Made by a program: the position numbers and the translations under genes. From a virus: a stretch of DNA of 55,764 nt. The notes under the pieces are model-generated. The model was not told the origin of the DNA. It was given only the letters and a program-made list of their open reading frames with translations, and did no database searches. Numbering within the stretch: position 1 is the first letter of the stretch; each line of letters opens with the position of its first letter. Below, one piece after another: positions 7,882 through 55,764 of this stretch. The DNA lies in the IMG/VR virus record IMGVR_UViG_3300047494_000274, positions 1 through 55,764 of that record. One strand, given 5' to 3'.

Positions 7882-8718
7882 CTATGTGGCGGCTGCAAAG
7901 ACCTTCGTAAAGCCCGGAGTCGGCACCTTCAACTTCGCCAGCAGCGGCAGCCGCGCATAGCCCGGCTCGCTGGCTTCGTCGCCTGCTTCGCTCGCCAGCA
8001 GCGCGATCACGATGCAGCGGCAGTTGAATCCGTTGGGCGGATAGATCTTGTTCCACACCGGATCTCCGACGCGCGCCTGGAAGCCGTCGAGCACCGCGTG
8101 CTCCGGCCGCACGCGATCGTCGCCGACGGTGAAGTACTGCCAGAAGGGCAACGCCTCGGCCACGTCGGGGTCCGTCATCTGCTCATAGCGGCCAAGGCTG
8201 TACGCCTTCTGCATGTTCGTGGTGAAGACGGTATCGAGCGTAAACGCCGTGATGTCGGCCACGCCCGCGTCGCCGGTGATCTTTTTCACCGCTGCCTCGA
8301 AGTCCGCGCGCGTGCCGCCCTTCTGCATCACGTCGGCCAGCTCGTCGCGCACCTTCTGGATGATGCGCACGTCGGAGACGCCAGCGACCGTAAAGGCATC
8401 GCGCTTGTACTGCGTGGTAAGGCCGTCGAAGGTGTCGCGCGTGACCGGCGTAAGGTTGCGCAGGTAGTTCGCGGAGCCATCCGCAGGCAGCTTGAGCGAG
8501 AAGCCGAGCGACAGATCGTCGGTATCGTCCGCTTCATCGAAGTGGATGAAGTGTCGCTTGCCGGAGTGATGCCGCGACGTCGTCGCAATCGGGATCACCT
8601 TGCCCGTCTTGCGATAGACCTCGCGCGCGATCTGCGAGCGGCCCAGCAGGTTCGCCGCCGCCATGTGCCTGGCCAGCAGGTCGCCGATCTTCATCTGGAT
8701 GTTGTCCGAGCGGATCAT
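7882..8718 (-). CDS. Minor head protein, SPP1 gp7 / Mu gp30 (phage_Mu_F) family
   Basis: The product is 278 aa. The C-terminal half carries the family signature: FWQYFTVGDDRVRPEHAVLDG, then a DPVWNKIYPPNGFNCRC motif with its paired cysteines. The ATG at 8718 overlaps the portal TGA (ATGA), which settles the start although the frame is open for another 143 codons into the portal gene. The protein is carried in the head with the genome and is required for infectivity or packaging in relatives. Confidence 0.9.
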   Translation of the reverse strand: MIRSDNIQMKIGDLLARHMAAANLLGRSQIAREVYRKTGKVIPIATTSRHHSGKRHFIHFDEADDTDDLSLGFSLKLPADGSANYLRNLTPVTRDTFDGLTTQYKRDAFTVAGVSDVRIIQKVRDELADVMQKGGTRADFEAAVKKITGDAGVADITAFTLDTVFTTNMQKAYSLGRYEQMTDPDVAEALPFWQYFTVGDDRVRPEHAVLDGFQARVGDPVWNKIYPPNGFNCRCIVIALLASEAGDEASEPGYARLPLLAKLKVPTPGFTKVFAAAT

Positions 8719-17886: not shown

Positions 17887-18081
17887 ATGAGCGTCCGCCC
17901 ACCTTCCAAGCCCGCGAGCAACGCGGGGCAGGCAAGCCTGCTGCGTGATGCGCTGCTCTCGATAGCCTCCACCTGCGTCACACACGCGGACGATACGAGC
18001 GTCGCGAAGCTCCGGGTCGCCGTGCGGCACATCGAGACCCTCGCCGCAGACAGCCTGCGCCACACTGGCGGTGCGGAATGA
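17887..18081 (+). CDS. Small early protein of unknown function
   Basis: The product is 64 aa, mostly helical, without motifs. Its stop overlaps the MuA start (ATGA), which links it to transposase translation. A small helical protein at this spot could modulate transposase, but nothing in the sequence shows it. Confidence 0.5.
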   Translation: MSVRPPSKPASNAGQASLLRDALLSIASTCVTHADDTSVAKLRVAVRHIETLAADSLRHTGGAE

Positions 18082-35068: not shown

Positions 35069-35599
35069 ATGCGCATCCGCTCGCTGTTGTACTACGCTTC
35101 GTTCGCCGCTCTGCTCGCGCTCTTCGTGCTCGGCGGCTGCACGTCTGCCTTCTCGCAGGCCACGCCGCCGAGGGCCGAACGCCCCAAGGCTGGCGCGAGC
35201 AACATCGTTCCGAACGTGCCATCCGAGGCCGCACCTGCTCCGGCCGCGCCAGCCGATCCGCCGAAGATGGTCGAGCTGACGCCGCGCGCCGCGCTCGACG
35301 ATACCGCCGCGCGCAGGCTTGTCTCGCATGAGCAGATTCTCGTGCTGCGCTCGCAGATCATGCAGGCCCGAATCGAGTCTGCCCGCGAGCTTAAGTTGAA
35401 GCTCGCACCGCTCGAAGCCGCGCTCGAAGCGCAGTCCGCGCAAGCGCCCATCGGCTCCGAATTCGCTGGTGTCGAGAAGCAGCTCGCCGCCTGGATCGCC
35501 GCCACGAAGCAGGCCAACGGCTGGGGCGAAGACGTCACCTACAACCGCCAGACCGGCAAGTTCGAAAAGCCCGCGCCGCCGGAGGTGAAGCACCCCTGA
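35069..35599 (+). CDS. Lipoprotein with coiled-coil segment
   Basis: The product is 176 aa with a signal peptide and lipobox LGGC (Cys24), a Pro/Ala-rich linker, and a helical part around residues 85-140 (LRSQIMQARIESARELKLKL). It starts 20 nt after the fibre gene and shares a stop/start base with the HTH gene downstream. Function unknown; a surface or periplasmic partner of the fibre, or a conversion factor, are possibilities. Confidence 0.6.
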   Translation: MRIRSLLYYASFAALLALFVLGGCTSAFSQATPPRAERPKAGASNIVPNVPSEAAPAPAAPADPPKMVELTPRAALDDTAARRLVSHEQILVLRSQIMQARIESARELKLKLAPLEAALEAQSAQAPIGSEFAGVEKQLAAWIAATKQANGWGEDVTYNRQTGKFEKPAPPEVKHP

Positions 35600-35859
35600 T
35601 GAAGCTGCCGGAGGACCGCAAGCTCACGCCGAGGGAGAAGCAGGCTGTCGCACTCATCTGCGAAGGCTACCGTGGAAAGGATGCGGCCGCCGCTATGGGC
35701 ATCTCCCCCGAAACGTTCAGGAGGCACATTCAAAACCTCTACGACAAGACTGGCCTGGGCACCCACTCGGAGATTATTCTGGCCTTCGGCGCGACCGGCA
35801 CACGGACCACGCTCACCGACCTTGTGGCGTCCCTGCTCCCGGCCTACGACTGGCCATGA
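35599..35859 (+). CDS. Small LuxR/GerE-type HTH protein
   Basis: The product is 86 aa. The whole N-terminal part is a GerE-type helix-turn-helix: LTPREKQAVALICEGYRGKDAAAAMGIS and then TFRRHIQNLYDKTG, with the conserved Glu of the family (PRE) and a basic recognition helix. It has no receiver domain. TGATG overlap couples it to the lipoprotein. It is probably a transcriptional regulator of the fibre end of the prophage. Confidence 0.8.
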   Translation: MKLPEDRKLTPREKQAVALICEGYRGKDAAAAMGISPETFRRHIQNLYDKTGLGTHSEIILAFGATGTRTTLTDLVASLLPAYDWP

Positions 35860-35909: not shown

Positions 35910-36070
35910 TTCCCTTGGATTGCACTCATTCCGAAGTGAATAAAACCCGCTCTGGCCGCGCTCTTTGACAATCTTATGCGTCACACGTTGTGACGAGTTC
36001 CGCTAGTTCCCTTGGATTTCCGTTGGGTCGTCACCAGAAATCAACAACTTAGCAACGTATTCCAAGGGAA
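35910..36070. repeat. TTCCCTTGGA repeats (candidate MuA-type sites)
   Basis: Two direct copies (35910-35921, 36007-36018) and one inverted copy (36059-36070) of a 12-bp word with at most one base change. Their placement close to the prophage end and on both strands fits transposase-binding sites. Confidence 0.6.
35979..35995. promoter_or_regulatory. Perfect palindrome near the prophage right end
   Basis: CGTCACA-CGT-TGTGACG is a 7-bp perfect inverted repeat around a CGT spacer. A TTGACA lies at 35965-35970, 8 bp before it, so it could be an operator for an outward promoter, but no -10 at the right distance is convincing. Confidence 0.45.
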
Positions 36071-36460
36071 CTCCGCCCCGTACTCCGAAAGATCGGCTGC
36101 ACTCCGAAATCGCCGCGCGCCCCCCAAATCCCCACAAAACCCGCGCCGATCCCGCCGTTTACCGCTATCGCCCCTCATTTCCCCCACTCCGGTTTCTCTT
36201 CTGTTCTTACAGGCGTTCAGGCACGCCACCACGCCGTCGACGATCTGTCCCAGGCCAGCGGAGAACCTTTCCGCATCCGCGATCTTGTGCGAGCTGACGG
36301 CATCGGCGAGATTGATCGACGCGGCGACAACCTCCAGCGCGGCACGCTTCTTCTGCTCGCCGCTGGCTGGCCCGGTCTCCGCGCCGAAGAGCGTCTCCGT
36401 GCCCTGGATGACCTCGGGTAGCATGGCGACGATCCGTACAAAGAGCTTTAGAAAATCCAT
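36041..36460 (-). pseudogene. Element B gene interrupted by the Mu-like prophage
   Basis: The reading frame gives 139 aa. Codons 1-83, up to position 36212, read like an ordinary protein: a hydrophobic-amphipathic start (MDFLKLFVRIVAMLPEVIQG) and helices through IVDGVVACLNA. From codon 84 the frame continues into the predicted prophage end and turns Arg/Gly-rich without order, ending EFPWNTLLSC, part of which is the translated repeat. AAGGAG lies 6 nt upstream of the ATG. It was probably a small phage-type (holin or spanin-like) gene. The missing 3' end should lie beyond the left end of element A. Confidence 0.55.
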
Positions 36461-36486: not shown

Positions 36487-36708
36487 CTAACGTTTGCCGA
36501 CGAAGTGGTCGATGGCCACGTGAACGATGGTCAACAGTCCACCGAACGCGGCGGCCATACCCTTCATCCGCTGCAGCGCTTGCTCATGCTTTAGCACGCG
36601 GTCCTCGACCTGCAATAAGCGGCCCGGCTGGCCGATGCCCATCACCTGTTGCATCTGGCTCTTCAGCACGCTCAGATCGCTGAGCACCTGGGTTTCGAAG
36701 TCTGTCAT
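36487..36708 (-). CDS. XhlA-like coiled-coil membrane protein
   Basis: The product is 73 aa from ATG 36708 (GAGGT upstream). A charged coiled coil (DLSVLKSQMQQV, VEDRVLKHEQALQRM) is followed by a hydrophobic helix at about 50-67 and a basic end. This layout is that of phage XhlA/haemolysin-type accessory lysis proteins. It follows the tail-hub gene and is upstream of the interrupted gene. Confidence 0.6.
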   Translation of the reverse strand: MTDFETQVLSDLSVLKSQMQQVMGIGQPGRLLQVEDRVLKHEQALQRMKGMAAAFGGLLTIVHVAIDHFVGKR

Positions 36709-36732
36709 GGTGTACCTCAATTGGGGCTTGAA

Positions 36733-39087
36733 TCAGCTGACCGGAAGATCGGTAAATACAGCGCTCGAAAGGCGTGAGTAGAGCGGGGGCACCGACGCGT
36801 CGTACATGCGGATGAAGTACTGCTCCACCTGCGCCGCACGCGGAATGGAGAAGCTGCGCACCGGCGAGCGCAGGACGAGATCCTGGTTGTCTGCCTGCAA
36901 TGTGGAAGGTCCAAATGCCCAGTCGCGTCGCCGCACCTCGAAGCCTCCACCCGCGGGAGGGTTCGTCCCCGCATCGATCTGGAGCGCCGTTGTGCTCGCG
37001 CTGGTCACGGTTAACTGTTGCAGGTTTGCGAGTACGGCTCCCGGCGCTGGCGAAGCCGTAAGCGGCAACAGCGCATCGGGAGCGATGGCCTCCGAGAGCG
37101 TCAGTCCCAACCCCTCCGCCCAGTCGTTGGCGAATGCGATGGTATACGCGAGCGCCTCGGGCGACGACGCGTCGCGTTCAACCCGCACCCTGCGCACGAT
37201 TGCGTTCGTGGTGGCACCGTTCTGGATGAACGCGAGCACATCGCCTGGCCACACATCCGTGCCCTGCTGCAGATTGACCGCGTCATAGGTGCCCGCGAGC
37301 GCGGCCGCCCGGCTGGTGGCGAAGCTCAGCACCGCCAGGGCTGCACTCTCGCAGTCGATCGAGCTGCGCGCCGGGGGCTTCAGCACCTTGCCCAGCCAGC
37401 GAGCGGTGCCTGACGCTCCGCCCGCAGCTTCAGCCGCAACGCTGGCCGGATCATCCAACCGCGCCACCGACCGCTGCGCATTGCGATACGCCACGGTTAC
37501 AAACTCCCCCGCGACGGGAATACGTCCAGCGAAGAATGTAACCTTCCCGGTTGCGGACAAGGTACAGTCGACGCCCTCGCCCGCTACGCCGATCAACCGC
37601 GTCTCAGGTGATGACGCTGGCGGGGTGCTGGTCACCCAGCCGGAGCCGGTCTGCGTGATCCGGCAGTAGTCGATGGAGCCATGCAGCGAGACGCTGTTCG
37701 CCACCGTAAAGGTGCAACTTGCCGAAGCTCCCAGAATTGGCCCGGCGGCGGTGCCGTCGTAAAGAATGGTCGCTGGCGTATTCGAGGCCGCACCGAGGTC
37801 CTGCAGATCGAAGACCAGCGTAATCGGCGCGGGCACGATGCCGCCGCCGAATGCCTCGGTCACGCCATCCACCGACGCATAGTAGGTCTGCAACACGCGC
37901 TGCATCTCGACGCAATGCACGCGGATGCGCAACGTATAGAGATGGCCCGGCAGCACCGTGAAGCTGCTTCCAACCGCCGTACCCATCGCCAGCGGAGTGA
38001 GCACCGTGTTGCCGCCCGCCGCGCCGACGCTGTACCCTGCGACGCAGTTCGTCGTGTTGACCGGCCCGTCGTAAAGGCCCAGCAGGATCCCCTGGCTGCC
38101 CGGGGTGATCGCAACGCTCCCTGCCTCGATCACCAGCGAGCCGCCAAGCTCTACAGGGTCGATGGCGGTAAGCGTCGTCTGTCCGTCGATGCCCGTGCCG
38201 CCCGTCAGCGTCAGCCCAGCCGAGGTGATATTCAGGTGCGAACCAGGATCGGTGATCGTCCATATCTGCGTGTCGATTGCGGCTTCGTTGAAGCCGTCCG
38301 TCAGAAGCCTGCGCAGCGACGGTGCGGGGCGGTAGAGGTCTTCGCTGAGTTGAAAGATCGCCGTCGTGCCATCGCCCAGAAAGGTCTCGGTGATGTAAGC
38401 AGCTGGCTCCATCGCGCCGCTGAGCGTCACATCGTTGGCCAGTTCCTTCACAGACGCGGTCTTCAGCGCGGCGATGGAGAGGAGACCACCGGCGGCATCG
38501 CGTCCCGTGTCGAAGTCGAGCAGGTGCGTCACGGCTCCTGCGGGCTGCATCGTAAGGGCGCCATCGAGCACGCGATACGCGGAGTAAGAGGCGTTTGCCA
38601 GCGCACCTGCATTGCGCGACCAGCTCGCAGCAGCGCTCGGCTCGAAGACTCCAACAGCGGCTGAATCGACGACGCCCGTGGTCGAAAAGACTCCGCCGAG
38701 CGCACGCTGCGTCAGCGTCCGCAGCACAGCGCCTGCCGGTGTCGACAACCCTGAGCCGAGGTAAGGGAGAGGCTGTTTGTCGAGCAGCCACTCATCGCTG
38801 ATCGCCGAGAACGCATAGCGATACACCGGCCCTGTGGTCGAGACGCCCGCATAGATCGCGACGGCTTCGATGCCCAGATACCCGGTGAACATTACCGTCC
38901 CGTTATCCGCCGCGATGACCACCCGGCCTCTGCGCACCGGCACCGCGAGCGTACAGGGTTCGAGCAATCCGCTTGCGATCGTCGGCTCATTCAGCGTCCG
39001 CTCGATCTTCAGCGGGACGTCGGCGGCGATTGCGGCCGAGTAATCGACCGCGCCCAGGCCATCCAGATTATCGATGGTCAGCCTCAT
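36733..39087 (-). CDS. Large tail hub/tip-like protein of element B
   Basis: The product is 784 aa, beta-rich. The N-terminal part (MRLTIDNLDGLG... LKIERTLNEPT) resembles the start of phage tail hub proteins, which share a barrel fold with T4 gp27-type hubs. A Gly/Thr-rich beta-sandwich region lies in the middle, with a region near 270-450 that looks like a concanavalin-type module, and the C-terminus has a fibronectin-like character. ATG overlaps the portal stop (ATGA), so portal and hub are co-translated, which is unusual because portals normally neighbour head genes. No enzyme motif seen. Confidence 0.6.
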   Translation of the reverse strand: MRLTIDNLDGLGAVDYSAAIAADVPLKIERTLNEPTIASGLLEPCTLAVPVRRGRVVIAADNGTVMFTGYLGIEAVAIYAGVSTTGPVYRYAFSAISDEWLLDKQPLPYLGSGLSTPAGAVLRTLTQRALGGVFSTTGVVDSAAVGVFEPSAAASWSRNAGALANASYSAYRVLDGALTMQPAGAVTHLLDFDTGRDAAGGLLSIAALKTASVKELANDVTLSGAMEPAAYITETFLGDGTTAIFQLSEDLYRPAPSLRRLLTDGFNEAAIDTQIWTITDPGSHLNITSAGLTLTGGTGIDGQTTLTAIDPVELGGSLVIEAGSVAITPGSQGILLGLYDGPVNTTNCVAGYSVGAAGGNTVLTPLAMGTAVGSSFTVLPGHLYTLRIRVHCVEMQRVLQTYYASVDGVTEAFGGGIVPAPITLVFDLQDLGAASNTPATILYDGTAAGPILGASASCTFTVANSVSLHGSIDYCRITQTGSGWVTSTPPASSPETRLIGVAGEGVDCTLSATGKVTFFAGRIPVAGEFVTVAYRNAQRSVARLDDPASVAAEAAGGASGTARWLGKVLKPPARSSIDCESAALAVLSFATSRAAALAGTYDAVNLQQGTDVWPGDVLAFIQNGATTNAIVRRVRVERDASSPEALAYTIAFANDWAEGLGLTLSEAIAPDALLPLTASPAPGAVLANLQQLTVTSASTTALQIDAGTNPPAGGGFEVRRRDWAFGPSTLQADNQDLVLRSPVRSFSIPRAAQVEQYFIRMYDASVPPLYSRLSSAVFTDLPVS

Positions 39088-40390: not shown

Positions 40391-40426
40391 GAAAATGAAA
40401 AAGGCACAGCCCGCGGGCCATGCCTT
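40391..40426 (-). terminator. Intrinsic terminator after the DUF3037 gene
   Basis: On the minus strand AAGGCA..GGCCCGCGGGCT..TGCCTT folds into a strong hairpin directly followed by TTTCATTTTC. It lies 32 bases after the DUF3037 stop and 39 bases before the portal start, so it would stop transcription of the cargo pair. Confidence 0.75.
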
Positions 40427-40457
40427 GTGTCTTCGGAACGAAATCTCTTGCTCAGCC

Positions 40458-41354
40458 CTACAATCGAAGCTCGAGCCGCGCCGTGCTCGCCGCCCGCGCG
40501 AGATCGTTCAGTGTAATCACGCGAATCTGCTGGCGCTCCATCGCCTCCACTCCAAACTGGTAAAGCTCCTGCGCGTCGCTGTCGAAGACCTCCGCGTCTT
40601 CATCGTGCTTTGCTCCGGCAACCGAGCGCAGCGGTTCGATCACCGCCGTCAGCTGGAGCTCTGCCGACTCCACCCTTGCCACGCCCTCGCGCAACAAGGG
40701 TGCGCTGTAGGCCAGCACCTTGGCGCCTTCGACGTCGGCATCGAGCGACACCGCGTGGAAGGCCCGCACCAGCCTCCTTGAAGCCACCTCGACCGCATAG
40801 CCGCAGTCGAGCCGCATCGGATCGCCCGGCCGCGTATAGCGCGAGGCGGCAATCCGCTTGTTCATGCTGCTCCAGACACCCGCCCGCTCGAACTCCGATC
40901 GCATCGCGCCGACGATCGCCGCCCGCCCCGTGCGTGGCTTTACGACCTTCTGCCTCGGCAGCGGCTCGACATACAAGCGCATCAACTGGTCGAGCTCCGC
41001 AGCGACGCTCTCCGTCAGGCATCCTCGCGGCTCCGTAAGCTGTACGCCATTGGAGAGTATGTCGGCCAACAATGTGAGCAGGGGCTTATAGGACTGTGCC
41101 GCCTCCGTCTGCGACGCGGCGAGCCGCGTCGACATCTCCGCCTCCAGCGCCTCCATCATCGCGATATCCGCATCCGGTTCCATGCACAGCACCCGCGTCC
41201 AGTCCCGGGTAAACCGCACCGCCACCACGCCGTCCGGCGAGGCAGAAGCGGGCACCACCTCGCGCAGTACGACCCCGATGTTCGTAAACTCGCCCTTCAC
41301 CACGTCCGGCACATACCGGACCAGGAAGAACTCGCAGGGAATCCGCTCGGACAT
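40458..41354 (-). CDS. DUF3037-family protein, partner of the HipA-like kinase
   Basis: The product is 298 aa from ATG 41354 (AAGGAG with a 10-nt spacer). The N-terminus CEFFLVRYVPDVVKGEFTNI and the GVVL that follows are the DUF3037 (PF11236) signature. A central helical domain and a beta-rich C-terminal part follow. DUF3037 genes are commonly found next to genes for stand-alone HipA-like kinases, and that is the arrangement here. The molecular role is unknown; a kinase regulator or substrate is a natural guess. It is placed between terminase and portal of a phage-type module and ends at its own terminator. Confidence 0.85.
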   Translation of the reverse strand: MSERIPCEFFLVRYVPDVVKGEFTNIGVVLREVVPASASPDGVVAVRFTRDWTRVLCMEPDADIAMMEALEAEMSTRLAASQTEAAQSYKPLLTLLADILSNGVQLTEPRGCLTESVAAELDQLMRLYVEPLPRQKVVKPRTGRAAIVGAMRSEFERAGVWSSMNKRIAASRYTRPGDPMRLDCGYAVEVASRRLVRAFHAVSLDADVEGAKVLAYSAPLLREGVARVESAELQLTAVIEPLRSVAGAKHDEDAEVFDSDAQELYQFGVEAMERQQIRVITLNDLARAASTARLELRL

Positions 41355-41459
41355 TGCCAATCTTTCTCCTTGGAACCCGATACCTGAAACCCTTGCACCC
41401 GCCAAGCAGTCTGCAATTCGCAGGCCACTTGTTCTTTTCGACCCGTGCCTCTCTTCGCT

Positions 41460-42446
41460 TTACATAACGTAGCCGCCGCTGCCGGGTTCGGCGACAGGTT
41501 CGGCAAACAGCCGAGGGACGACCACGGTCTTCGTCGTGCTCCAAAGCGGGAACGGCTCTCTCCCCGAGTCCCGAAACGATTGAATCAGCTCCCGCACTCG
41601 CCCTCGCCGACTCAGCAATTGCTCTATCAGCCGCTCGATCGCACCGCCGTCGCCACCGTACCACTCCGGGGGCACGACATCTGCGATCTCCCAGATCTTT
41701 TCCGGGGACATGCCCTCGATTCTGCTCAGCCAGGGTTCAAAGCTCTGCCAGCCGCTGACCCCGTCGTAGACCCGGTTGCTGCCGTAGACGCCGCGCAACG
41801 GCGAGTCGGCAAAGTTCCAGGAACCGGCGTTGAAGCAGAAACCGTGGTCGATAAAGGTCGCGGTGTAGCGCGGCTCCCTCGCTCCGCGAAAGAAGACCGC
41901 CTGGCGGCCATTGCAGTTGCAGGTCCACTTATCCAGGCACAGCATTCCGGCAAAGTCGGCCAGGTTTCGCACCTCTTCCAACTGCGGTTCGGGCAGGTAG
42001 TCCACCGTCTGCCCGATGATGAGCGGCGAGCTTCCTCGTCGCCTTCCGGCAGGCTGCAACTCCGCCTGCGCTCCAATGAATCGTGACCCGAACTGCAGGC
42101 CCGGCAGATACCGATCGCGCCGCGACCCGCCCACTTCGAAGAAGAGATCCGGCGTATTTTCCACCAGCCACGGGCTTACGTCGATCACGTCGCAATCCGG
42201 CACCGGCAGTCCTATGGCCGCAGCCAGCCGGGTCACGATCAGTTCGTTCGCCAGTACCCGGATATGCTGGGGGTTGTTCTGGAACTTCACCACCCACAAC
42301 TGGCGGTCCGCGCCGAGCATCAGCTGGCTCTGCGCCCCGCCCCGCATCTTCCGGATTGCCTGCACTGCCTCGACCGCCAAGCCTGCACCTCGCTCCAGAA
42401 GCATACTGCACAGCAGCCGGACCTCGGGAGAAGTGCCCCGCGCCAT
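41460..42446 (-). CDS. HipA-like kinase (HipA_2-type) embedded in a packaging operon
   Basis: The product is 328 aa, shorter than HipA (440 aa) and lacking its N-terminal subdomain. ATG 42446 shares one base with the terminase stop (TGATG). Kinase elements seen: WVVKF (Lys54, ATP contact), LDKWTCNCNGRQ (Asp172...Asn176, Asn178) and FIDHG (Asp200, metal ligand). The residue in line with the catalytic Asp of HipA (TDGHAKN) seems to be Asn178, which should be checked. HipA kinases phosphorylate aminoacyl-tRNA synthetases or other proteins and cause growth arrest. No HipB-like antitoxin is adjacent; the partner is DUF3037. Confidence 0.82.
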   Translation of the reverse strand: MARGTSPEVRLLCSMLLERGAGLAVEAVQAIRKMRGGAQSQLMLGADRQLWVVKFQNNPQHIRVLANELIVTRLAAAIGLPVPDCDVIDVSPWLVENTPDLFFEVGGSRRDRYLPGLQFGSRFIGAQAELQPAGRRRGSSPLIIGQTVDYLPEPQLEEVRNLADFAGMLCLDKWTCNCNGRQAVFFRGAREPRYTATFIDHGFCFNAGSWNFADSPLRGVYGSNRVYDGVSGWQSFEPWLSRIEGMSPEKIWEIADVVPPEWYGGDGGAIERLIEQLLSRRGRVRELIQSFRDSGREPFPLWSTTKTVVVPRLFAEPVAEPGSGGYVM

Positions 42447-44108: not shown

Positions 44109-47100
44109 CTAGTTCAGTTGCTGCCAGTACTCGCCCGCTGCGCTCGCTGAGACCAGCGTCCCTTTGAAGTCTTTACAGGTGTTGTTCGGCACCGCGATTG
44201 AGACTGTGCCGGTCACATTGTTGAACGGCAGATCCGACGGGGCAGCGATGGTCAGCGTATTGCTTCCCGATGCGCTTGCATTGCAGCGTCGGATCACACG
44301 GTTCGTGTACCCGATCGCCGAGGGGAGCGTGTCCGTAATGTTGTTCGCCGCCGTGTTGAAGACCTTGCACCCGTCCGAAGCGACCGAGGTATACGTCGAC
44401 GCCGTGACCACGGTCGGATCGCAGTTCGCGATGGTCGACCCTGTCACCTGGTCGATGGCATGGCTGGCGATCGGCGCAATCACATTCTGCTGCCCCGTCA
44501 AGGTAAGGTGGGTCCCATCGCCCTGGTAGTAGGTGGTGTTCGAGTACGCACCATCCGCGCCGACCAGCGCGTTGCCGGCAAAGTCCGCCACCGCGTCGCA
44601 CTGCGTCAGCGCCTGCGCACGGATCAGCCCATTCAGCGTGTTCTTGTTCGCATCGTTCGAGCTGCCCCGCGAGATCATCGTCGCGGCAATCGTCTTGAAA
44701 CCGTAGGAGTGCATTAGGGCGCATTCGCCCAGGATCGAGTTCACCGCCGCCTGGGCCGTCAACCCATGCGTCGCCACATCGTTTGTGCCGTTCCAGATGA
44801 ACGACACGTTTGAATAGGCGTTTGGCGCATAGCTGTTTCGCTCGCGGCTGGGCAGCAGGCTCAGGTTCTGTCCGGCTGTAATGTTTCCGATGCCGTAGTT
44901 CGTGATGTTGTACGGGATGCGTGTCGAAAGAAAGTTCACGAACGGGGACACGCCTTCCCCATTGGTCAGCGAGTCTCCGGTGAATACCGCCTGCGGAGTC
45001 ACCGTCGGCAGCGGATTCGCCGTGAACTGCACACCGCGAGAGAGTGCAAGGTTCTTCGCATAACCGGTCGCAGCCGTCACGTCGTTCGCGCTCAACTGCG
45101 TCGACCAGAAGCTCGCCCGGTACACGCTGCCCTGCATGTAGGTGTCGTACCCGGTAGGAGCACCGCAGACATCGAAGACGCCGTTCGACTTGCCAAAGGA
45201 AGACTGCCCCGAGGTGCCGAGATTCACCGGCGAACCATCCAGATAGAACTGGTCGATGCTGGTTCCGGAGACGCCCAGGACCGCTATCGCCACATGCGTT
45301 CCCACATAGCTGCCATCGCTTCCCGTCTGCCCGGTGCCGTTGACGAAGATGCCCGGCTGGTAGCCGTAGTTCTGCGAGGAAGAATAGAACAGCAGCCCTG
45401 CCAGAGTCGGGTTTCCCCACAGCGTGTAGAAGTAGGGCGGCACGGGTGCATTCGCCCCCACCGGCGGCGGAATCGTATAGACCAGCATGATCGACTTCGC
45501 GTTCTGTGTTCCCGCCGTCGTGAAGTACTGCCCCGTCGTCGTGCTTCCCGCCACCGAGCAACTTATGCCCTGCGAGGTCCAGGTCGGATTCGCCGCGCCC
45601 CCGGGAAAGCTGCCTGTGTTGCCATTGCCGCTTGAATCGGCCGGTGCGGTGCCCGAGCCGTCCGTCAGCAAATAGTCCGCCAGCAGATTGCTCGACTGCG
45701 GCAGGAACGTCGCGATCAGCGGCTGGCATGTGCCGGATGCCGGACTCCATACGTTGCCGACCGTGGTGCAGCTTCCTTCGCTCCGGACCAGCGTGTTTAT
45801 GTCGCTCGCCGTCGCTGTACGCGGAACTCCGCTGCCGCTCGTCGTCGCAACCAGCCCCGTCGTCAGCCCGGAGAACGCGGTCGATGCGAGATACGCCGAA
45901 GCCGATGTCGTCGCCGCCGACCCAAATGCGACGCCGTTGGTCTTCGTGCAGGTCGCCGCCCCGGAAGCCGAGAGTGTGCAATCCCCCGACACCGTCTGCG
46001 GCGCGTACCCCGTCCCTCCAGCGTTGCCTACCAGCACCTGTCCCGCAGCGGGAGCCGTGGCCACACCCGTCCCGCCGCTGCTTGCAGCAATCGGCGTCGC
46101 GGCCGTCACCGTCGTAAAGCTACCGGCTGCGGGAGTCGTCCCACCGATCGCCGTACCATCGATGGTGCCCGAGGTGATCGCCGCGACCGAACTGCTGCCG
46201 CCTCCGCCCGTTCCCGATGGAACAGACCATGTGCCGTCCTCGCGCAGAAAGTGGGTCGTGCCCGCGGTGGCGCCAGGGTCCGGAACGATGCCCGCTACAT
46301 GGCTTGTGCCGCTTGGCCCAAACAGCGGCAGCCGAGCTGCGGCGATCGTTCCGCTGGCAATGCTGCTGCCGTTGATGGTGGCGTTCAATGTGGTTGCATT
46401 GACGGTGGTAGCATTCACCGTTCCTGCCGTGAACGCGCTCGGCGAGAAGCTGTACCCTGTGCCGCGCAGCCCCAGCGAGAAGGTACTCGTCGCCGGAGTC
46501 CATGCAAAGGTGTCCGTCCCCACCGAGCTTTGCAACTCAAAGAGGTTGTACGGGCTGTTCCACTTGCCGCAGCCGTGGCTATTGCAGTAGACGGTGAAGA
46601 CGCTCTGCTCGCCCGCCTCAAGCGACATCGTCCGCTTCCAGACACCGGTCGACTGGTACGCGAAGTCCGGCGCGGTGTGTGTCCCGCCGTTGCCAAGATA
46701 GTTCGCCGCCGGTGTTCCATTGTTCACCGACCATCCCTGCACCCCTGGGCCGGTATTGCCTTGGTAGGTAATGCCCGCGCGCGTGTAGGTCGTCGGCCTG
46801 GGCATGGTCTGCGTCACATAGGTGGTGTCGGCGGCGATCGCCTGCTGATAGAAGTGCGGCTCCTCGACCCCATCGCCCGAGGCCCACGCCACCGTGTTCG
46901 GCGCAAGTGTCATCTGCCCATCGACGGCCTTCGCCGTCTGGTCGAAGACACTCAGCACCTCCGCCATCGGATAGAGCGCAAAGCCGCCCGTCAGCATCGA
47001 TGCTGTCCCGCCCGTGCTTGTGCTGTTTGCGCCGGTCTGTGCGTAGGTGAAGCTGTTGCCTGCGGTCGAACTCACGTTGAAGCTGCCGTTGTAGCTGCTG

Positions 47101-49172
47101 TCCGCTGCGCCCGCGATCGTGAGCGTCAGCCCGTTCACATCGAAGGGCGCACTGCTCGTGGTCGTCACCGTCACCAGGTTGCCGCTGCGCGAGAGAGAAG
47201 CGATGGGCAGGTTCAAATTGATGTACGAAGAGGTCGACCCCATCTGCGCCACCACCGCCGATGTCGTCCCCGCATAGTAGAGCCCGGTCGCCGAGTAAGA
47301 TCCCACCACCGGAAACACCTGTCGTATGCCGCTGACCGTATCGACCGTTTGCTCCAGCCCATACCCGCACAGGCCGCCAACCGCTACCGAAGCCAGCGCA
47401 GCATGGGCCTTCTGCAGTGTCATCTGCAGATGCGTTCCGTCGATCACGGTGTAGTTCGCCATCTCATAGTTGCTCGGCAGAAATCCGTTCGGCTCGTCCG
47501 CCACGCACGCCACGCCGCTCGCGGATAGAGCGCTTGTGCTGGTCGCATATCCGCTCGGAGCGCCTGTCGTCGCAATCGAAAACGTAACCAATCCCGGCGC
47601 GGTATTGTTCGCCTGGGAAGGAATCGCCTGCGCGGTCGCCAGGAAGGTGCTCACCGGAAAGCTCGTCCCGGTAAAGGTCGCCGTCGCATGGGGTGTCCCG
47701 AATGCGCCGCCTGTCAGCGAGCCCGAACTGAGAACCTTCGCCGGGTTCGTGTCGATCAGGAAGCGGCCATCACCCTGCGTGCCAGCACCTGCGGTCGGGG
47801 TCACCGTCACGACCGTCGATCCCGTCGAGCATCCAGCCGCGCACGTCCCATCGAAGACATGCGTATCCTCCGCGATCTGAATATCCATCGGATGCGCGCC
47901 CTCGTCCGCCTCATCCCGAAAGCCGCCCGAAGCCGTGATGTACTCCGACCCAATCAGGCAGTCGCCCACGCCATAGCAGTTGATGCCATGCGGCTCCAGC
48001 ACATGCTGCCCCTGCGTGTTGTAGGTGCCGTTGACGGTCAGCGCGCTGTACCCGCTCTTGAAGTAAGGCACGGTTGTGTCGATCGACTGCGGAAACAGGT
48101 TCGACCCGCCTGTCAGCCCCTCATTCGAGACCGCAAGGCCGATCGAGGCCGGGCTGTTCGTCCCCGTCAACTGATGCAGCGCCGCGCCATTCCGCGTCGA
48201 GACCACATCCACCGCCTGCCCGCTCTCGATGCCCGGCCTGTCCAGATTCTCCGGGTTCAGATAGCTATCCCACCGCCCGCCCTTGCGCGTGTCTTCGACG
48301 TGCGTCTGGCTGTTCCACTGCGCGGGATGCACCGGCTCCGTCGTTGCATAGCTCTGGTCCGCCTTCACCTCGCATCCGCTGGCGCAATCCGTGCTGGCTG
48401 TCGCATTGGCGATACCGTTCGGTGATCCGAGCGTCGTGTACTGCGACGCGTACTCGACCCCATTCAGGAGATTAACGCTCAGGTCCGTGCCCGTCGGCTG
48501 CGTCACCACCTGGCTCGCCGAAGGCACCAGGGACACCTTCCCTCCGCTGCCTCCGCCCACCGCAGCCACGCTCGTATCCACATAGTGCTTGTCCGCGGCC
48601 TGGCTGCTCGACACTGGATCGGCCGGAAGCAGAAGCGGCCCCGTCATCGTATCGCCGCTCTTCATCACGTATGCCGAGCTGCCCGCCGTCCCATTCACGG
48701 CATTTGCAATCGCCGTATCGACATAGCTCTTCGTCACCGTGTGCAGCGCCACGCTCGCCGGCAGCACGGTGCTCTTGATCGACGCGATCGTTACCGGCGT
48801 CGTGCTCACCGGAACCACCCAGTACTCTCGGCTCACCGTGCCGTCATCCAGGTGATAGATCGCCGTGTAGTAGCTGCCCATCGGGTTCGAGCCCGCATTG
48901 GGCACCAGCGAAACCGACAGCGCGCCGCCCGTGCCAATGGTCACCGACGTATTGCCCGCCGGGACGGATAGCCCGCTCGCTGTTGTGAACTGCGGCCAGC
49001 TCACCAGCACTGTTCCCGTTGCCGTGGTTCCATCGCCTCTATAGACGACATCGGTAAGCTGCGTCGTCGCGATCGAACTCTGCGCCCAGATCTCCCGCAC
49101 CGGCGCAACCCCCACCCCCGCCATCAGCGAGAGCGCCACCAGCACCTCGATAAGCCTCTTCCATCTCAGCAT
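44109..49172 (-). CDS. Giant fibre with signal peptide, LamG-like and SGNH hydrolase domains
   Basis: The product is 1687 aa from ATG 49172 (AGGAG 6 nt upstream). It begins with a Sec signal peptide (LRWKRLIEVLVALSLMAGVG, cleavage near WAQ). Then: beta domain (about 35-145), phage-fibre repeats of the type ADKHYVDTSVA, long beta regions, LamG/concanavalin module (about 1164-1370) and an SGNH/GDSL hydrolase (about 1395-1640) with GDSLTNG, NYGIGN, GTND and DGTH (block V Asp and His). The hydrolase may deacetylate or de-esterify host surface polysaccharide. Signal peptide and fibre features together are unusual. Confidence 0.8.
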   Translation of the reverse strand: MLRWKRLIEVLVALSLMAGVGVAPVREIWAQSSIATTQLTDVVYRGDGTTATGTVLVSWPQFTTASGLSVPAGNTSVTIGTGGALSVSLVPNAGSNPMGSYYTAIYHLDDGTVSREYWVVPVSTTPVTIASIKSTVLPASVALHTVTKSYVDTAIANAVNGTAGSSAYVMKSGDTMTGPLLLPADPVSSSQAADKHYVDTSVAAVGGGSGGKVSLVPSASQVVTQPTGTDLSVNLLNGVEYASQYTTLGSPNGIANATASTDCASGCEVKADQSYATTEPVHPAQWNSQTHVEDTRKGGRWDSYLNPENLDRPGIESGQAVDVVSTRNGAALHQLTGTNSPASIGLAVSNEGLTGGSNLFPQSIDTTVPYFKSGYSALTVNGTYNTQGQHVLEPHGINCYGVGDCLIGSEYITASGGFRDEADEGAHPMDIQIAEDTHVFDGTCAAGCSTGSTVVTVTPTAGAGTQGDGRFLIDTNPAKVLSSGSLTGGAFGTPHATATFTGTSFPVSTFLATAQAIPSQANNTAPGLVTFSIATTGAPSGYATSTSALSASGVACVADEPNGFLPSNYEMANYTVIDGTHLQMTLQKAHAALASVAVGGLCGYGLEQTVDTVSGIRQVFPVVGSYSATGLYYAGTTSAVVAQMGSTSSYINLNLPIASLSRSGNLVTVTTTSSAPFDVNGLTLTIAGAADSSYNGSFNVSSTAGNSFTYAQTGANSTSTGGTASMLTGGFALYPMAEVLSVFDQTAKAVDGQMTLAPNTVAWASGDGVEEPHFYQQAIAADTTYVTQTMPRPTTYTRAGITYQGNTGPGVQGWSVNNGTPAANYLGNGGTHTAPDFAYQSTGVWKRTMSLEAGEQSVFTVYCNSHGCGKWNSPYNLFELQSSVGTDTFAWTPATSTFSLGLRGTGYSFSPSAFTAGTVNATTVNATTLNATINGSSIASGTIAAARLPLFGPSGTSHVAGIVPDPGATAGTTHFLREDGTWSVPSGTGGGGSSSVAAITSGTIDGTAIGGTTPAAGSFTTVTAATPIAASSGGTGVATAPAAGQVLVGNAGGTGYAPQTVSGDCTLSASGAATCTKTNGVAFGSAATTSASAYLASTAFSGLTTGLVATTSGSGVPRTATASDINTLVRSEGSCTTVGNVWSPASGTCQPLIATFLPQSSNLLADYLLTDGSGTAPADSSGNGNTGSFPGGAANPTWTSQGISCSVAGSTTTGQYFTTAGTQNAKSIMLVYTIPPPVGANAPVPPYFYTLWGNPTLAGLLFYSSSQNYGYQPGIFVNGTGQTGSDGSYVGTHVAIAVLGVSGTSIDQFYLDGSPVNLGTSGQSSFGKSNGVFDVCGAPTGYDTYMQGSVYRASFWSTQLSANDVTAATGYAKNLALSRGVQFTANPLPTVTPQAVFTGDSLTNGEGVSPFVNFLSTRIPYNITNYGIGNITAGQNLSLLPSRERNSYAPNAYSNVSFIWNGTNDVATHGLTAQAAVNSILGECALMHSYGFKTIAATMISRGSSNDANKNTLNGLIRAQALTQCDAVADFAGNALVGADGAYSNTTYYQGDGTHLTLTGQQNVIAPIASHAIDQVTGSTIANCDPTVVTASTYTSVASDGCKVFNTAANNITDTLPSAIGYTNRVIRRCNASASGSNTLTIAAPSDLPFNNVTGTVSIAVPNNTCKDFKGTLVSASAAGEYWQQLN

Positions 49173-49230
49173 CCCAATCTCCTCTTCTCCAAAACCTAAA
49201 GAACTCGTCATCGCAGACTCGCGACCTAAC

Positions 49231-50202
49231 TCAAACCACCCGCATAACTCCAGGCAGATAGCTCCTGAAACACACCACTGCAGCCCCATCGTTCGCGTCC
49301 ACGACGGGCAGCGCCCGAAACGCTCCCGCCAAGCGCATCCGCGTCAACGGTCCCGCCAGGGCGCTCGCCTGCTCAGTCGACCCCTGCATCGCCTGCAGCC
49401 GCGGATAGTGATAGATCACCCGGTCGCCCTGCTGCCCATCGCAGACAAACAGTCCCGACCACTCCTGGAAGAACCTTCCTCCCTCGCGGTCGCAGAATCC
49501 CGCCAGCCTGCTCACCTGCATCCCCGCCACGGGCGCACCCGCCAGCAGCGGAGCACCCAGCGTCAAGACGCCTGCCGCGATACCCACCACGCGGCCCACA
49601 TTCAGCGTCACGCGGCGGATGTAGTTCGCATCCCCGCCCACCGAAGCCGAAGAAGTTACATACGCCGCGCTCACTCCGCTGCCTACGTATCCCACCTGGC
49701 CCGCATAGTCCAGGTCGACCGCCACCAACTGTCCCACCGCAAACGCCGCCGCCACGCCCACATCGAGCGCGTTCGCGCTCGATGTCGCAATCGTGATCGG
49801 CGTGGCCGCCGCCGCCACTCCACCCGAGCCATTCGCCGCCGCGCCCGTCGCGGTCGCCAGCAGATTCATCTGCTCCGACCCTGCCGCTACAGCGAGCTGC
49901 AGCTTGCCCCAGCTCTCAAACTCGACCGACACCGTCGCCTCGACCTCCGTCCGCACCTGCGTCTGCACGATTGCCGGAGCGCCTGCCCGCAGCGCGCCGA
50001 CCTTGGTCTCCACCTTGCGCGAAAACCCCGAGACCCAGCCCAGGTCCAACCACGGCGCGGGCGGAGCATCGAGCGCAAACGCCCCCAGCTGCGCCGGATC
50101 GAAGATCGTCGGCACACCCGCTTCTCGCACCACCGGCGCAAAGTAAGCCCTCACGCGATCCACCAACGGGACCGTCGCCGCTACCAACCCCGCCGCGCTC
50201 AC
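49231..50202 (-). CDS. Tail-tube-like protein of element B
   Basis: The product is 323 aa from a GTG that overlaps the upstream stop (GTGA). The region WVSGFSRKVETKVGALRAG and VEATVSVEFESWGKLQLAV has the look of a tail tube protein N-terminal sandwich; the second half is Ala/Gly/Val-rich and beta. Order (capsid, connectors, this gene, fibre) supports a tube or tail-spike adaptor. No tape measure gene follows it. Confidence 0.55.
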   Translation of the reverse strand: MSAAGLVAATVPLVDRVRAYFAPVVREAGVPTIFDPAQLGAFALDAPPAPWLDLGWVSGFSRKVETKVGALRAGAPAIVQTQVRTEVEATVSVEFESWGKLQLAVAAGSEQMNLLATATGAAANGSGGVAAAATPITIATSSANALDVGVAAAFAVGQLVAVDLDYAGQVGYVGSGVSAAYVTSSASVGGDANYIRRVTLNVGRVVGIAAGVLTLGAPLLAGAPVAGMQVSRLAGFCDREGGRFFQEWSGLFVCDGQQGDRVIYHYPRLQAMQGSTEQASALAGPLTRMRLAGAFRALPVVDANDGAAVVCFRSYLPGVMRVV

Positions 50203-50708
50203 AGCTCACCCGCTTCCTGGTAGCTGAAGACCTGCACTGTCGCCACCCGCTGTATCCGTTCTCCCGTTGCGCTGGCCGGGTGAAACACCGCCTCGCTCCA
50301 GAAGATATTCGTCGCCATCGGCACCGCCGCCGCGCCTGTCCCCGCCACGCCGCTGTAGCTCTGCTTGAGCGCCGAACGCGGCTCCGCATTCACCGCCGAG
50401 GCCAGCTCCGCATCCATCCCGGAGAGCAGCCGTCCGCGATCCATCCCTCCGTTGGCCGCAGTCCCATCGGTCGCGTACCGCACCTCGCACTCCATCGCGA
50501 CCAGCGGCAGTGGTCCTGCCGCATCCACGCTCAGCGAAGTCCACCGCAGGCTGAACGCATCCGGCTGCTGAAACGCGGACGCCAGCTCATTCTCCTCGAC
50601 CAGCACACCCGGCCGCGTTATCCCTCGCACCACGATCGTTCGCGCCGGATTGATCGCCGCCAGCCGCGTCCGAAGCGTGATGTAGAACGTGTCGCGCGCG
50701 TCTTCCAT
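50199..50708 (-). CDS. Tail terminator/connector-like protein
   Basis: The product is 169 aa, mixed alpha/beta with no Cys. ATG at 50708 has GAGGG upstream. It sits between a connector-like gene and the tube-like gene, the usual site of a tail terminator. Not recognised by sequence. Confidence 0.5.
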   Translation of the reverse strand: MEDARDTFYITLRTRLAAINPARTIVVRGITRPGVLVEENELASAFQQPDAFSLRWTSLSVDAAGPLPLVAMECEVRYATDGTAANGGMDRGRLLSGMDAELASAVNAEPRSALKQSYSGVAGTGAAAVPMATNIFWSEAVFHPASATGERIQRVATVQVFSYQEAGEL

Positions 50709-50754: not shown

Positions 50755-51210
50755 CTATGTCCTCAACGCCAGCGGAGCGCGCAACACCAGCCGATACAGA
50801 TACGGGCCGCCACCTACCTCCGACCAGGTCGCCGACACGATCTCCAGCAGCACCTCCGCCAACGCCGTATCCGGCAGCACCACGCCAAGCGCGACTGCAA
50901 ACAGCGTCTCCGCCGAGTCATACCCGAGCGCCCCGACCAGGGCGCTTACCGCCGTCACCGAAACCAGCAGTTCGTACACCGCTGGCGCACTCGCCGTATT
51001 AGTCAGCCCCGAAGGCACCCTCGGCCTTACCCGCCGAAACACCACCGGGCACAGGTCTGAATCCTGAAACTGCGGCGTCGCCAGTCCAAGCTGCTCGCCA
51101 TCGTCGTCCGGGTTCGCGGCGGCTGGCACGCGCAGCAATACCCGCCGCCCACCCACCGTTCGCAGCAGCGAGTCCGCCGCCCGGACCGCCGCCTCCGTCA
51201 TGCTCGCCAT
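50755..51210 (-). CDS. Head-tail joining protein, unassigned
   Basis: The product is 151 aa if it starts at ATG 51210; a TTG at 51234 would add 8 residues and overlap the upstream gene by 20 nt. Beta-rich with a hydrophobic centre. Position after the connector gene suggests a head-closure role. No family recognised. Confidence 0.5.
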   Translation of the reverse strand: MASMTEAAVRAADSLLRTVGGRRVLLRVPAAANPDDDGEQLGLATPQFQDSDLCPVVFRRVRPRVPSGLTNTASAPAVYELLVSVTAVSALVGALGYDSAETLFAVALGVVLPDTALAEVLLEIVSATWSEVGGGPYLYRLVLRAPLALRT

Positions 51211-51214
51211 AGCG

Positions 51215-51838
51215 TCACCCGATCCTTTGCGCAAGATAAGGCCGCAGCAGCGCCTGGACCTGTGGGTCGATCAGGTTGCCGCTGAAGTACTGCATCTGCA
51301 TTGTGTCGAGCTTGCTGGACCGCACATTCAGCGCTGGCGTCGCCTGCGCGTTCTTCACGATCTGCGCGCACGCCACCTTCACTGCCGGAGGCACGACCAG
51401 CAGCCCTGCGGTGTACGTCACCTGGACCTCGTTGTAGTTCAGGCCAAGGAAATTCCTCGGAAACGTCAGCTCGCCCGTGTCCAGGTTCACGTCGACACTA
51501 TTTACATCCAGCTCGCTCCAGCTACCCGGCAAGCTGAACGCCCACGCCACCTGCGCCATCATCGGATCTTCGAGCTCACCTCGCCGAGGAGCCGTATATC
51601 GCACCTGCACATCGATCAGTGCCGTCAGCGCCGGAGCGATCGCATTCAGCGGCATGTAGCTCAGCCGCACTGTCTGCGAGCCTGCCGTTAGCCGCATCCG
51701 TTCCACATATTGAGCCGCCAGCAGACTCGGCCGCCGACAGTAGCTCTCCATCAGCGCCGAAGCCGTCGTCACCCAATCCGCGGTCGTCTCCGGCGGCAGC
51801 CCGTAAAGCACATACTCCTCGGGCAAGAGATACCCCAT
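51215..51838 (-). CDS. Head-tail connector (gp6/gp15-like) protein
   Basis: The product is 207 aa. The N-terminus MGYLLPEEYVLYGLPPETTADWV and the segments LMESYCRRPSLL and VTYTAGLLVVPPAVKVACAQIVKNA are typical of head-tail connector adaptors of the HK97 gp6/SPP1 gp15 kind. GAGGAGG precedes the ATG. It lies directly downstream of the major capsid gene, after a terminator-like hairpin. Confidence 0.7.
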   Translation of the reverse strand: MGYLLPEEYVLYGLPPETTADWVTTASALMESYCRRPSLLAAQYVERMRLTAGSQTVRLSYMPLNAIAPALTALIDVQVRYTAPRRGELEDPMMAQVAWAFSLPGSWSELDVNSVDVNLDTGELTFPRNFLGLNYNEVQVTYTAGLLVVPPAVKVACAQIVKNAQATPALNVRSSKLDTMQMQYFSGNLIDPQVQALLRPYLAQRIG

Positions 51839-51938: not shown

Positions 51939-52910
51939 CTATCGATCCACGAGCACCTGATAGTGGGCATAGTTGGCGCCCTTCACTACAAGGCCGCCGA
52001 ACTTTACCACCACATACTGCGAAGCCAGCGATCCGGGCACTCCCAGTTGGAAGACCCGCGGATTCGGCTCGCTCAGCCAGTGGTACTCAATCATGTCCTC
52101 GGTCACGATGTACGCCGGAAGAACCGCGCTCCCCGATCCCGGAACGCCGGTATACCCCAACGTCCAGTCCGGGATCAGCGGCAGTTCGCCCGCCTGCGTC
52201 GCCATCGTCTTCACCGTGAATCCGCCCTCGATCGTCTTCGTGCTCAACACCACGTTGAACTCCGACTTCATCTCGCGGTCGATCAGGTCCAGCAGCACCG
52301 GGTTCGCATAGATCGCCGTCGGCCTCACGCCATACGAGGTGCTGGACACCATCGTTGCCACCGCTGACTTCAACCCATCCACAATGCTCGCCGCTGAACC
52401 CACCGTCACCGTATTGCCGCCCGCGACGATCTGCCCGATCGCGCCGTAATACTGCGTCGTCGTCGGAGCGCTCAGGCTGGTGTCCGTGCCGTTCCACAAC
52501 GCCACGTCATGCGTCCGCAGAACGCCGTCCACGGTATCGGTGAGGTCCTTCGCCTGCAGGTAAGCAAACTGACTCTGCTGCTGGCCCAGCTCGATGTCGA
52601 AGAGGTTGTAGTTGATCTGCGCCACCAGCGCCTTCAGCGGCACGCTGCGCTCCACGCGCGTCGGAGCCACCAGCGGTGCAACAATGTTGCGCGGATCGAC
52701 AAACCCGGCCGTCGCCGAAGGCGACGGAATCGCCGTCTCTTCAAAGAACCGCGACGGATGCCCCGTCGCCGGAACCTGCTTGATGCGTTGCCCAAAGATG
52801 CCCCTGCGCCGCACCAGGTCGGTGATCTCCGTCTGGTACATCGGTACTTCAATTGCGCCGGGTCCAATGTAGTCCGCCGTTGCATACAGGTCTGTAAACT
52901 TCGCGTTCAT
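51939..52910 (-). CDS. Major capsid protein of element B
   Basis: The product is 323 aa from ATG 52910 (AAAGGA upstream). The segments MYQTEITDLVRRRGIFGQRI, FVDPRNIVAPL, INYNLFDIELGQQQSQFAYLQAKDL and MIEYHWLSEPNPRVFQLGVPG recall the HK97-fold SU10-like/E-type major capsid proteins found in several phage groups. It follows protease and scaffold-like genes. It is not similar by eye to the 5253-6197 capsid protein of element A, indicating a separate origin. Confidence 0.8.
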   Translation of the reverse strand: MNAKFTDLYATADYIGPGAIEVPMYQTEITDLVRRRGIFGQRIKQVPATGHPSRFFEETAIPSPSATAGFVDPRNIVAPLVAPTRVERSVPLKALVAQINYNLFDIELGQQQSQFAYLQAKDLTDTVDGVLRTHDVALWNGTDTSLSAPTTTQYYGAIGQIVAGGNTVTVGSAASIVDGLKSAVATMVSSTSYGVRPTAIYANPVLLDLIDREMKSEFNVVLSTKTIEGGFTVKTMATQAGELPLIPDWTLGYTGVPGSGSAVLPAYIVTEDMIEYHWLSEPNPRVFQLGVPGSLASQYVVVKFGGLVVKGANYAHYQVLVDR

Positions 52911-53911: not shown

Positions 53912-54538
53912 TTAACTCGCCGGCCGCGCCCCGCAACGTCCCTGGCTCAACCGAAAGCTCGTCCCCCGGTACGCCGCCTTCTCGCGCAGCAGAATCGCCG
54001 CCCCGGTAAATGTCGCCCGGGTTAGCGTCCACACCTGCGCCCGCATATCCGCGACATGGGCGTCGGCCAGCTCATAGCTCATCCCCATCGCGCCTTCCAC
54101 ATCCACCTTCTGCTCCATCTCCGGGAAGTCCTTGGCAAACAGGTACCCGGCCACCTTCAGCCGCTGCCCCTCCATCTGTGCCGCCGTGATGATGCCGCAC
54201 TTCCGCCGTGCGTCATGGCCGTCCCATCCTTCCTTGTAGTCGACTGCCATCCCCAGCAGGCTTGGCAACGCACTCTCGGCGGCCTGCCGAGTCAGAATGA
54301 CGCGATGCCCGCGCGACCCCGTCGGGGCCTTGTCGCTTGGCACGTCGACCAGTGTCAGCACACCCTCAAACGCCAGCCGGTTCGGGTGTCCATGGACCAC
54401 CGGAAACTCAACCGCCATCGCATGGAGCTGAAGCGACGGCGGCTGCAGCCGCGGGTTGAGCGTCCTCTGCGAAACTCGCAAAGGCCGCGCCGAAGCCAGC
54501 CGGCTCGTCTGCCGGTCCTGTGCTGCACCTTCCTTCAT
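53912..54538 (-). CDS. Prohead protease-like protein
   Basis: The product is 208 aa, ATG 54538 (AGGAG 5 nt upstream). An N-terminal basic segment precedes a beta domain with the residues expected for a herpesvirus-type prohead protease: GHDARRK (His108) and GMSYEL (Ser154), in the order and spacing of that family. It would cleave the scaffold and capsid after assembly. It lies upstream of the scaffold and capsid genes, a standard arrangement. Confidence 0.7.
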   Translation of the reverse strand: MKEGAAQDRQTSRLASARPLRVSQRTLNPRLQPPSLQLHAMAVEFPVVHGHPNRLAFEGVLTLVDVPSDKAPTGSRGHRVILTRQAAESALPSLLGMAVDYKEGWDGHDARRKCGIITAAQMEGQRLKVAGYLFAKDFPEMEQKVDVEGAMGMSYELADAHVADMRAQVWTLTRATFTGAAILLREKAAYRGTSFRLSQGRCGARPAS

Positions 54539-55227: not shown

Positions 55228-55764
55228 CTATTGACAGTCCTTTGCAGGTTCCAGCAATCCGACCGAGAGAAAGATCGCCGTTAGCCGGTCGATGGTCTGA
55301 CGATAGCGCCGAATCACCGTCCGCGGCGGCATCTTCAGCATCTTCGCCGTCTCCTGTTGTGTGTACTGCTGCAGCGCAATCCGCCGAACCAGCCACTGCT
55401 GCTCCCGATCCAGTCGCGAGATGCAGGTCTCCACATCGTGAATAAAGATAACCACATCCTCGAAGCTATGGACTTCATAGCTTGTGACGCGGCCCCGAAA
55501 CATCTCCTTGCCCAGCAGAGACGGCACCCTTCCCGCTTCCATGGACATTGCGACGTACCGCCTTAGCATCCCCTCCGTATATTTTCGGTAAAACGCCCTC
55601 TGAGGCTGCGGTGAAGTCGTTACCGCAGCCTCGATGCCAGACGTCGGCAAGCTCTCCTTGTGCTTATCCGATGGCACACTGGCCCACACCAGAGGAAGAG
55701 TCTGGGTGCAGAGATGAAGTGTTTCAGGACGCATCGTCGCAAAATTAAATGCAGTGGCGCTCAT
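55228..55764 (-). CDS. Sigma-70 region 4-like regulator (RinA/ECF-like)
   Basis: The product is 178 aa, with an ATG at the window edge; it may be complete. Residues about 112-168 form a helix-turn-helix of sigma region 4 type: ISRLDREQQWLVRRIALQQYTQQETAKMLKM, followed by PPRTVIRRYRQTIDRL. No region 2 is evident. Phage proteins of this kind (RinA-like) activate late genes. It is the first gene of element B in transcription order, insulated by a terminator, and likely controls the capsid operon. Confidence 0.65.
   Translation of the reverse strand: MSATAFNFATMRPETLHLCTQTLPLVWASVPSDKHKESLPTSGIEAAVTTSPQPQRAFYRKYTEGMLRRYVAMSMEAGRVPSLLGKEMFRGRVTSYEVHSFEDVVIFIHDVETCISRLDREQQWLVRRIALQQYTQQETAKMLKMPPRTVIRRYRQTIDRLTAIFLSVGLLEPAKDCQ

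Follow-up and report, generated by a model that had tools for sequence, protein, structure and literature searches.

HipA kinases encoded beside DUF3037 proteins are known from bacterial defence systems. The closest to the locus described here is HipAD, recovered as DS-6 by DefensePredictor (PMC13092281), which corresponds to PDC-M66 in PADLOC and is an E. coli prophage defence system according to Brenes and Laub 2025, as cited there. A catalytic-residue mutant of DS-6/HipAD loses defence, and a complex of the two proteins is predicted by AlphaFold3 (PMC13092281). In the HipA/DUF3037 unit of Retron-Sda1, where HipA acts as a toxin that DUF3037 neutralises, deletion of the kinase abolishes defence and deletion of DUF3037 is toxic (PMC12548924). 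The pair examined here shares with HipAD/DS-6 a HipA kinase beside DUF3037, a compact two-gene unit and intact kinase residues, but the C-terminal domain of its partner protein is not recognisable as DUF1829, and it resides in the terminase/portal gap of a vertically inherited element, where a role in defence is predicted. It combines the same two families as the Retron-Sda1 unit, but in an element without a retron RT or ncRNA. Like the kinases of E. coli HipBA and HipBST, its kinase has the kinase fold, the D-x4-N catalytic loop and the D-x-G motif, whereas its N-lobe is short and no HipB-like HTH antitoxin gene adjoins it, the neighbours being terminase and DUF3037. The gene transfer agents (GTAs), such as RcGTA and the Caulobacter GTA with LypABC (PMC13236601), are likewise single-copy, vertically inherited, prophage-derived clusters with an attached immune-like module; in the present element, particles and DNA transfer are putative. 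No acidobacterial GTA was found described in the literature searched.

The window, that is, the whole stretch of DNA analysed, corresponds to an IMG/VR record with a length of 55,764 bases (Table 1). The earlier note had placed the pair in a phage packaging/head operon, and it does lie in a phage-type gene cluster, but the window is not a single phage. It holds two unrelated phage-derived units, a prophage of Mu type, recognised by Portal_Mu (E=1.7e-68), Phage_Mu_F (E=4.7e-20) and an rve/Mu transposase, and a separate element at about 36-55.8 kb which carries the pair; the window is thus likely a piece of chromosome. The Mu-like prophage, which also has an AAA ATPase gene, adjoins the element where purEK comes in other genomes. 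Within the element, capsid, protease and tail functions were assigned from position and conservation.

Table 1. Features of the window (strand as given; E-values from Pfam)
Feature	Position	Strand	Remarks
Neighbouring Mu-like prophage, outside the element	1-36000 (to ~36 kb)	.	Mu matches
Mu F protein	7882-8718		in Mu-like prophage
Mu portal	8715-10145		in Mu-like prophage
Transposase	18078-20213		in Mu-like prophage
Small LuxR/GerE-type HTH protein	35599-35856		edge of Mu-like region
Conserved small element protein	36041-36460	-	
Small one-helix protein	36487-36720	-	holin-like by appearance only
Conserved element protein, probable tail/baseplate	36733-39087	-	784 aa; function inferred from position
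Portal protein	40352-39084	-	probable start 40352; ORF open from 40421; Pfam/PHROG
Intrinsic terminator, duf3037/portal gap	40426-40401	-	11-bp stem, then TTTTT
DUF3037 protein (PF11236; PDC-M66B)	41354-40458	-	298 aa; predicted antitoxin/sensor partner
HipA-like Ser/Thr kinase (PF20613; PDC-M66A)	42446-41460	-	328 aa
Terminase large subunit	44107-42446	-	Pfam marginal + PHROG
Long tail-fibre-like protein	44109-49289	-	GDSL/SGNH hydrolase-like domain at end
GDSL-type domain of the fibre protein	44112-45200		PF13472, E=1.6e-6, just under cut-off
Conserved head/tail protein	49231-50202	-	
Conserved head/tail protein	50199-50708	-	
Conserved head/tail protein	50755-51210	-	
Head-tail adaptor	51215-51838	-	phrog_442
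Putative major capsid protein	51939-52910	-	position, conservation
Putative prohead protease	53912-54418	-	position, conservation
Sigma-70 region 4-like gene, first of the element	55228-55764	-	cut by contig end

On the minus strand, the genes follow each other in the order terminase, HipA-like kinase, DUF3037, terminator and portal. Gene calls, Pfam and PADLOC agree on the pair proposed earlier from the sequence, with matches to HipA_2 (PF20613, E=1.8e-8) for the kinase and to DUF3037 (PF11236, E=2.7e-20) for its partner, and with a PADLOC call of PDC-M66 (PDC-M66A, 2e-7; PDC-M66B, 2e-10). The portal is matched clearly (PF04860, E=3e-50); the terminase is matched marginally by Pfam (PF17289, 4.9e-4) but strongly by a PHROG terminase family (E=1e-23). 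The TGATG overlap by which the pair was said to be coupled to the terminase exists in the window, together with a plausible Shine-Dalgarno sequence (GGAGAG), but it is not conserved, as the homologues usually begin about 21 codons later than the window kinase and the terminase-hipA spacing in other loci is mostly 15-1131 bp. The terminator, on the other hand, held up: the portal start most likely lies downstream of it, and a comparable hairpin is found in the duf3037/portal gap of at least 58 of 93 elements (by an ad hoc hairpin rule, used without a shuffled control). Together with the loci that carry the pair alone (see below), this suggests that the pair is an independent transcription unit. 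The hairpin has a recurrent stem, AGGCATGGCC...GGCCATGCCT, in many loci from divergent genomes, which may be a widespread acidobacterial terminator.

We then examined the two proteins. The predicted active-site residues of the window kinase are K54, D172, N177 and D200; in line with the kinase motifs seen in the earlier note, they are present, and G36, Q39, K54, D172, N177, D200 and G202 are invariant across 63 homologues. The structure model (pLDDT 86.7) matches HipA, CtkA and FAM20-type kinases in a fold search (Shewanella HipA, E=2e-6), while a profile search of PDB sequences gave a chance match only. Judging from these residues, the active site looks intact. A pseudokinase had been considered because an alignment of NCNG with NTDG in E. 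coli HipA pointed to a lost catalytic Asp; this idea was dropped, since the invariant D172-x4-N177 and D200-x-G202 match the D309/N314 spacing. The Ser150 gate in the P-loop of E. coli HipA is seemingly missing from the window kinase (motif RGGAQSQ). The model of the DUF3037 protein is confident (90.1), and its comparison with solved folds gave nothing significant, the best PDB matches being PD-(D/E)XK-like nucleases at E~0.05. Its C-terminal domain has no Pfam match, and a search for DUF1829 in 57 homologues gave no match at E<=1; hence, the pair is of the PDC-M66 type and not a strict DS-6. Purifying selection acts on the pair at a level similar to that on portal and terminase (median dN/dS of 0.11 for the kinase, 0.08 for DUF3037, 0.13 for the terminase, 0.09 for the portal and 0.05 for the capsid).

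HipA homologues also occur without a recognisable DUF3037 neighbour (L138, L148, L152, L140, L144, L146, L150, L153 and L154), so the kinase may be tolerated without DUF3037 or may use other partners; in some genomes the number of HipA-like matches rises to as many as nine (G111). Several loci have a gene for a dual-specificity protein phosphatase (PF00782) on the upstream side of hipA (L145:4668-5123, L141:1701-2162 and also L138, L139, L143, L148, L152, L059, G041 and G019); in L138, L145, L148 and L152 it is immediately adjacent, which suggests a kinase-phosphatase pairing at hipA loci. At L153, a zeta-toxin-like P-loop gene, named by reading, directly follows the HipA-like gene (6392 onwards).

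The earlier note called for a search for further loci in which the pair separates terminase and portal, and these recur. Scans with the kinase yielded viral contigs as well as 80 loci in genomes, almost exclusively from Acidobacteriaceae, and most share the gene order of the window. Since a count based on the kinase is biased toward the pair, the loci were recounted starting from the portal alone. Found in this way, 21 of 24 viral contigs have hipA-duf3037 between terminase and portal, and the remaining ones (L164, L167 and L170) have no pair. A strong portal match was present in 98 of 150 genomes of one family, nearly always in single copy, with a few split in fragments, and in 89 of these 98 genomes a kinase lies within 6 kb of the portal. 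Most of the nine others are interrupted by the end of a contig. Of the rest, G083 has the kinase in its usual position but with a broken frame, neither pair nor terminase is present at the portal of G129, the pair is truly absent from G041, and G020 stands apart from these cases. In G041 (L106:1489-3065), the place of the pair is taken by a TonB-like gene on the opposite strand and a gene for a four-helix bundle (23S IVP-like); reading of the sequence gave both names. At class level, the portal was found in 63 of 299 genomes, with one match each, and tblastn searches of phage records (kinase and DUF3037) and plasmid records (DUF3037) gave no match. Two versions of the gene order exist among 20 genomes, with the protease-capsid-connector block either ahead of the fibre gene or behind the portal, and the terminase-HipA-DUF3037-portal block is intact in both.

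The carrier of the pair is a single-copy, recombinase-free element of about 18 kb in Acidobacteriaceae. A comparison of 40 kb around the portal in 20 genomes, with flanking genes named from reading the sequences, placed it at one chromosomal site. The upstream side has RuvX-, MltG-, LolA-like and Gfo/Idh-type genes, or else a different conserved gene accompanied by an HTH regulator; the downstream side has PurE, PurK, E2, LipB, Lpd, HemB and MutS2. Both sides could be recognised in 14 or more of the 20 genomes. For 10 of 10 genomes, the matches listed within 20 kb included neither a tyrosine nor a serine recombinase. Host distances correlated with those of the virion genes (r=0.72) and with those of the pair (0.81), as did distances of virion genes and pair with each other (0.81); each value exceeded all of 1000 permutations, and quick trees of host, virion genes and pair gave the same well-supported groups and agreed in the main clades. 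A further comparison of the pair with virion genes gave distance r of 0.59-0.74, and tree conflicts of the pair with terminase plus portal were 7 of 39, compared to 6 of 44 between terminase and portal. The GC content of the pair (64-65%) is like that of its neighbours. Conserved gene order, a fixed single-copy site, the lack of a recombinase among those matches and the agreeing trees thus identify the element as a domesticated, vertically inherited prophage. It is probably the same element as the acidobacterial 'Cluster 153' prophages (Eichorst 2018, PMC5900883), as the portal of G041, at 5,171,350, agrees with the Ellin345 interval of 5.15-5.19 Mb, if G041 is Ellin345, as it appears to be. 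That work calls them prophages; the fixed site, the vertical descent and the kinase pair come from the present analysis.

At the chromosomal site of the element, several genomes have hipA-duf3037 alone (L042, L051, L135, L136 and L137), as does L032, where the upstream flank only is present, and no terminase or portal remnants were detected at these sites. Three changes are required to account for the pair-only loci on the host tree, a number imposed by branches with strong support, and on the pair tree these loci are nested in element clades, so that loss of all virion genes with retention of the pair appears to have happened in three or more independent events. For L135/L136, which are pair-only relatives, dN/dS, derived from dN and dS, is about 0.08 and 0.04. 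Alternatively, the pair was present at the site before the element, a history made possible by the divergent pairs that occupy the site without the element (L143 and L145). The pair-only loci, together with purifying selection and the invariant kinase residues, disfavour a role in packaging and favour one as a toxin-antitoxin or defence (or addiction) module.

Hence, we favour the reading, at a probability of roughly 0.6, that the pair is a toxin-antitoxin module of the HipAD/PDC-M66 type which has become fixed in a domesticated prophage that Acidobacteriaceae inherit vertically. By analogy with homologous systems, from which complex formation, trigger, target and growth arrest are taken, the DUF3037 protein would bind and restrain the HipA-like kinase in growing cells. 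The kinase would be released by some trigger, for which infection by another phage is the likeliest candidate and induction of the element a further possibility. It would then phosphorylate a host target, perhaps, as with HipA, a translation factor such as an aminoacyl-tRNA synthetase, and thereby halt growth. The beneficiary would be the cell, through abortive defence, or the locus, through addiction, and not virion assembly. Weighing against this reading are the C-terminal domain of the DUF3037 protein, which does not match DUF1829, the HipA homologues that lack a DUF3037 neighbour, and the seemingly missing Ser150 gate.

The main rival is co-option for the element, since the long co-divergence of the pair with the virion genes may equally point to a function that serves the element. 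The co-opted immune-type pair would then decide on arrest and release in the cells that make GTA-like particles, a part played by LypABC in the Caulobacter GTA (PMC13236601), and its fixed place inside the element in both gene-order versions fits this idea; however, purifying selection keeps the pair after the loss of all virion genes, a terminator separates it from the portal and the particles are putative, which makes such control rather unlikely. Less likely again is addiction only, in which a selfish toxin-antitoxin pair persists because its loss kills, with no benefit for defence or for the element. While this would account for the three or more independent cases in which the flanking virion genes are gone and exactly the pair is left, the clean absence of the pair from some elements (G041, L164, L167 and L170) and from many genomes of the family indicates that it can be lost, and such pairs are anti-phage in other bacteria. 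A kinase for packaging or morphogenesis, phosphorylating terminase, portal or capsid, would explain the invariant position between terminase and portal and the co-divergence with both, but such a kinase, like the role in the timing of packaging suggested by the earlier note, is improbable in view of the lineages that have the pair and no virion genes, the few elements with terminase and portal and no pair, and the known homologues, which are defence systems. The note's further idea, a toxin that would fire on induction of the packaging operon, has to reckon with the conserved terminator between the pair and the portal genes and with a terminase coupling that is not conserved. That the pair is a moron recently acquired by a mobile phage can be dismissed as highly improbable, because, although phage genes flank it and HipAD is carried by E. 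coli prophages (as cited in PMC13092281), it is conserved across genera in single copy at one site with no recombinase among the matches listed, resembles its neighbours in GC and has congruent trees. What stands of the anti-phage moron proposed earlier is therefore its anti-phage part, as pairs of this type have been found experimentally to act as kinase toxin and DUF3037 neutraliser in defence (PMC12548924, PMC13092281; PDC-M66), and not the cargo of a mobile phage, the pair having co-diverged with a domesticated element.

The element is possibly a GTA: it is vertically inherited, at a fixed locus and in single copy, and no integration module was among the matches listed for 10 genomes. Tentatively, it may represent an undescribed GTA lineage of Acidobacteriaceae with an immune module of its own, HipA/DUF3037, that either determines what becomes of producer cells or protects the population, an independent parallel to the CARD-NLR-like LypABC of the Caulobacter GTA; for a dominant phylum of soil bacteria, this would be a GTA candidate. 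In summary, a recently recognised defence family (HipAD) is tied to prophage domestication, and a toxin-like pair belongs to an element that a bacterial family has kept throughout its history, and persists beyond the virion genes, which offers a natural experiment on why bacteria retain prophage-derived loci.
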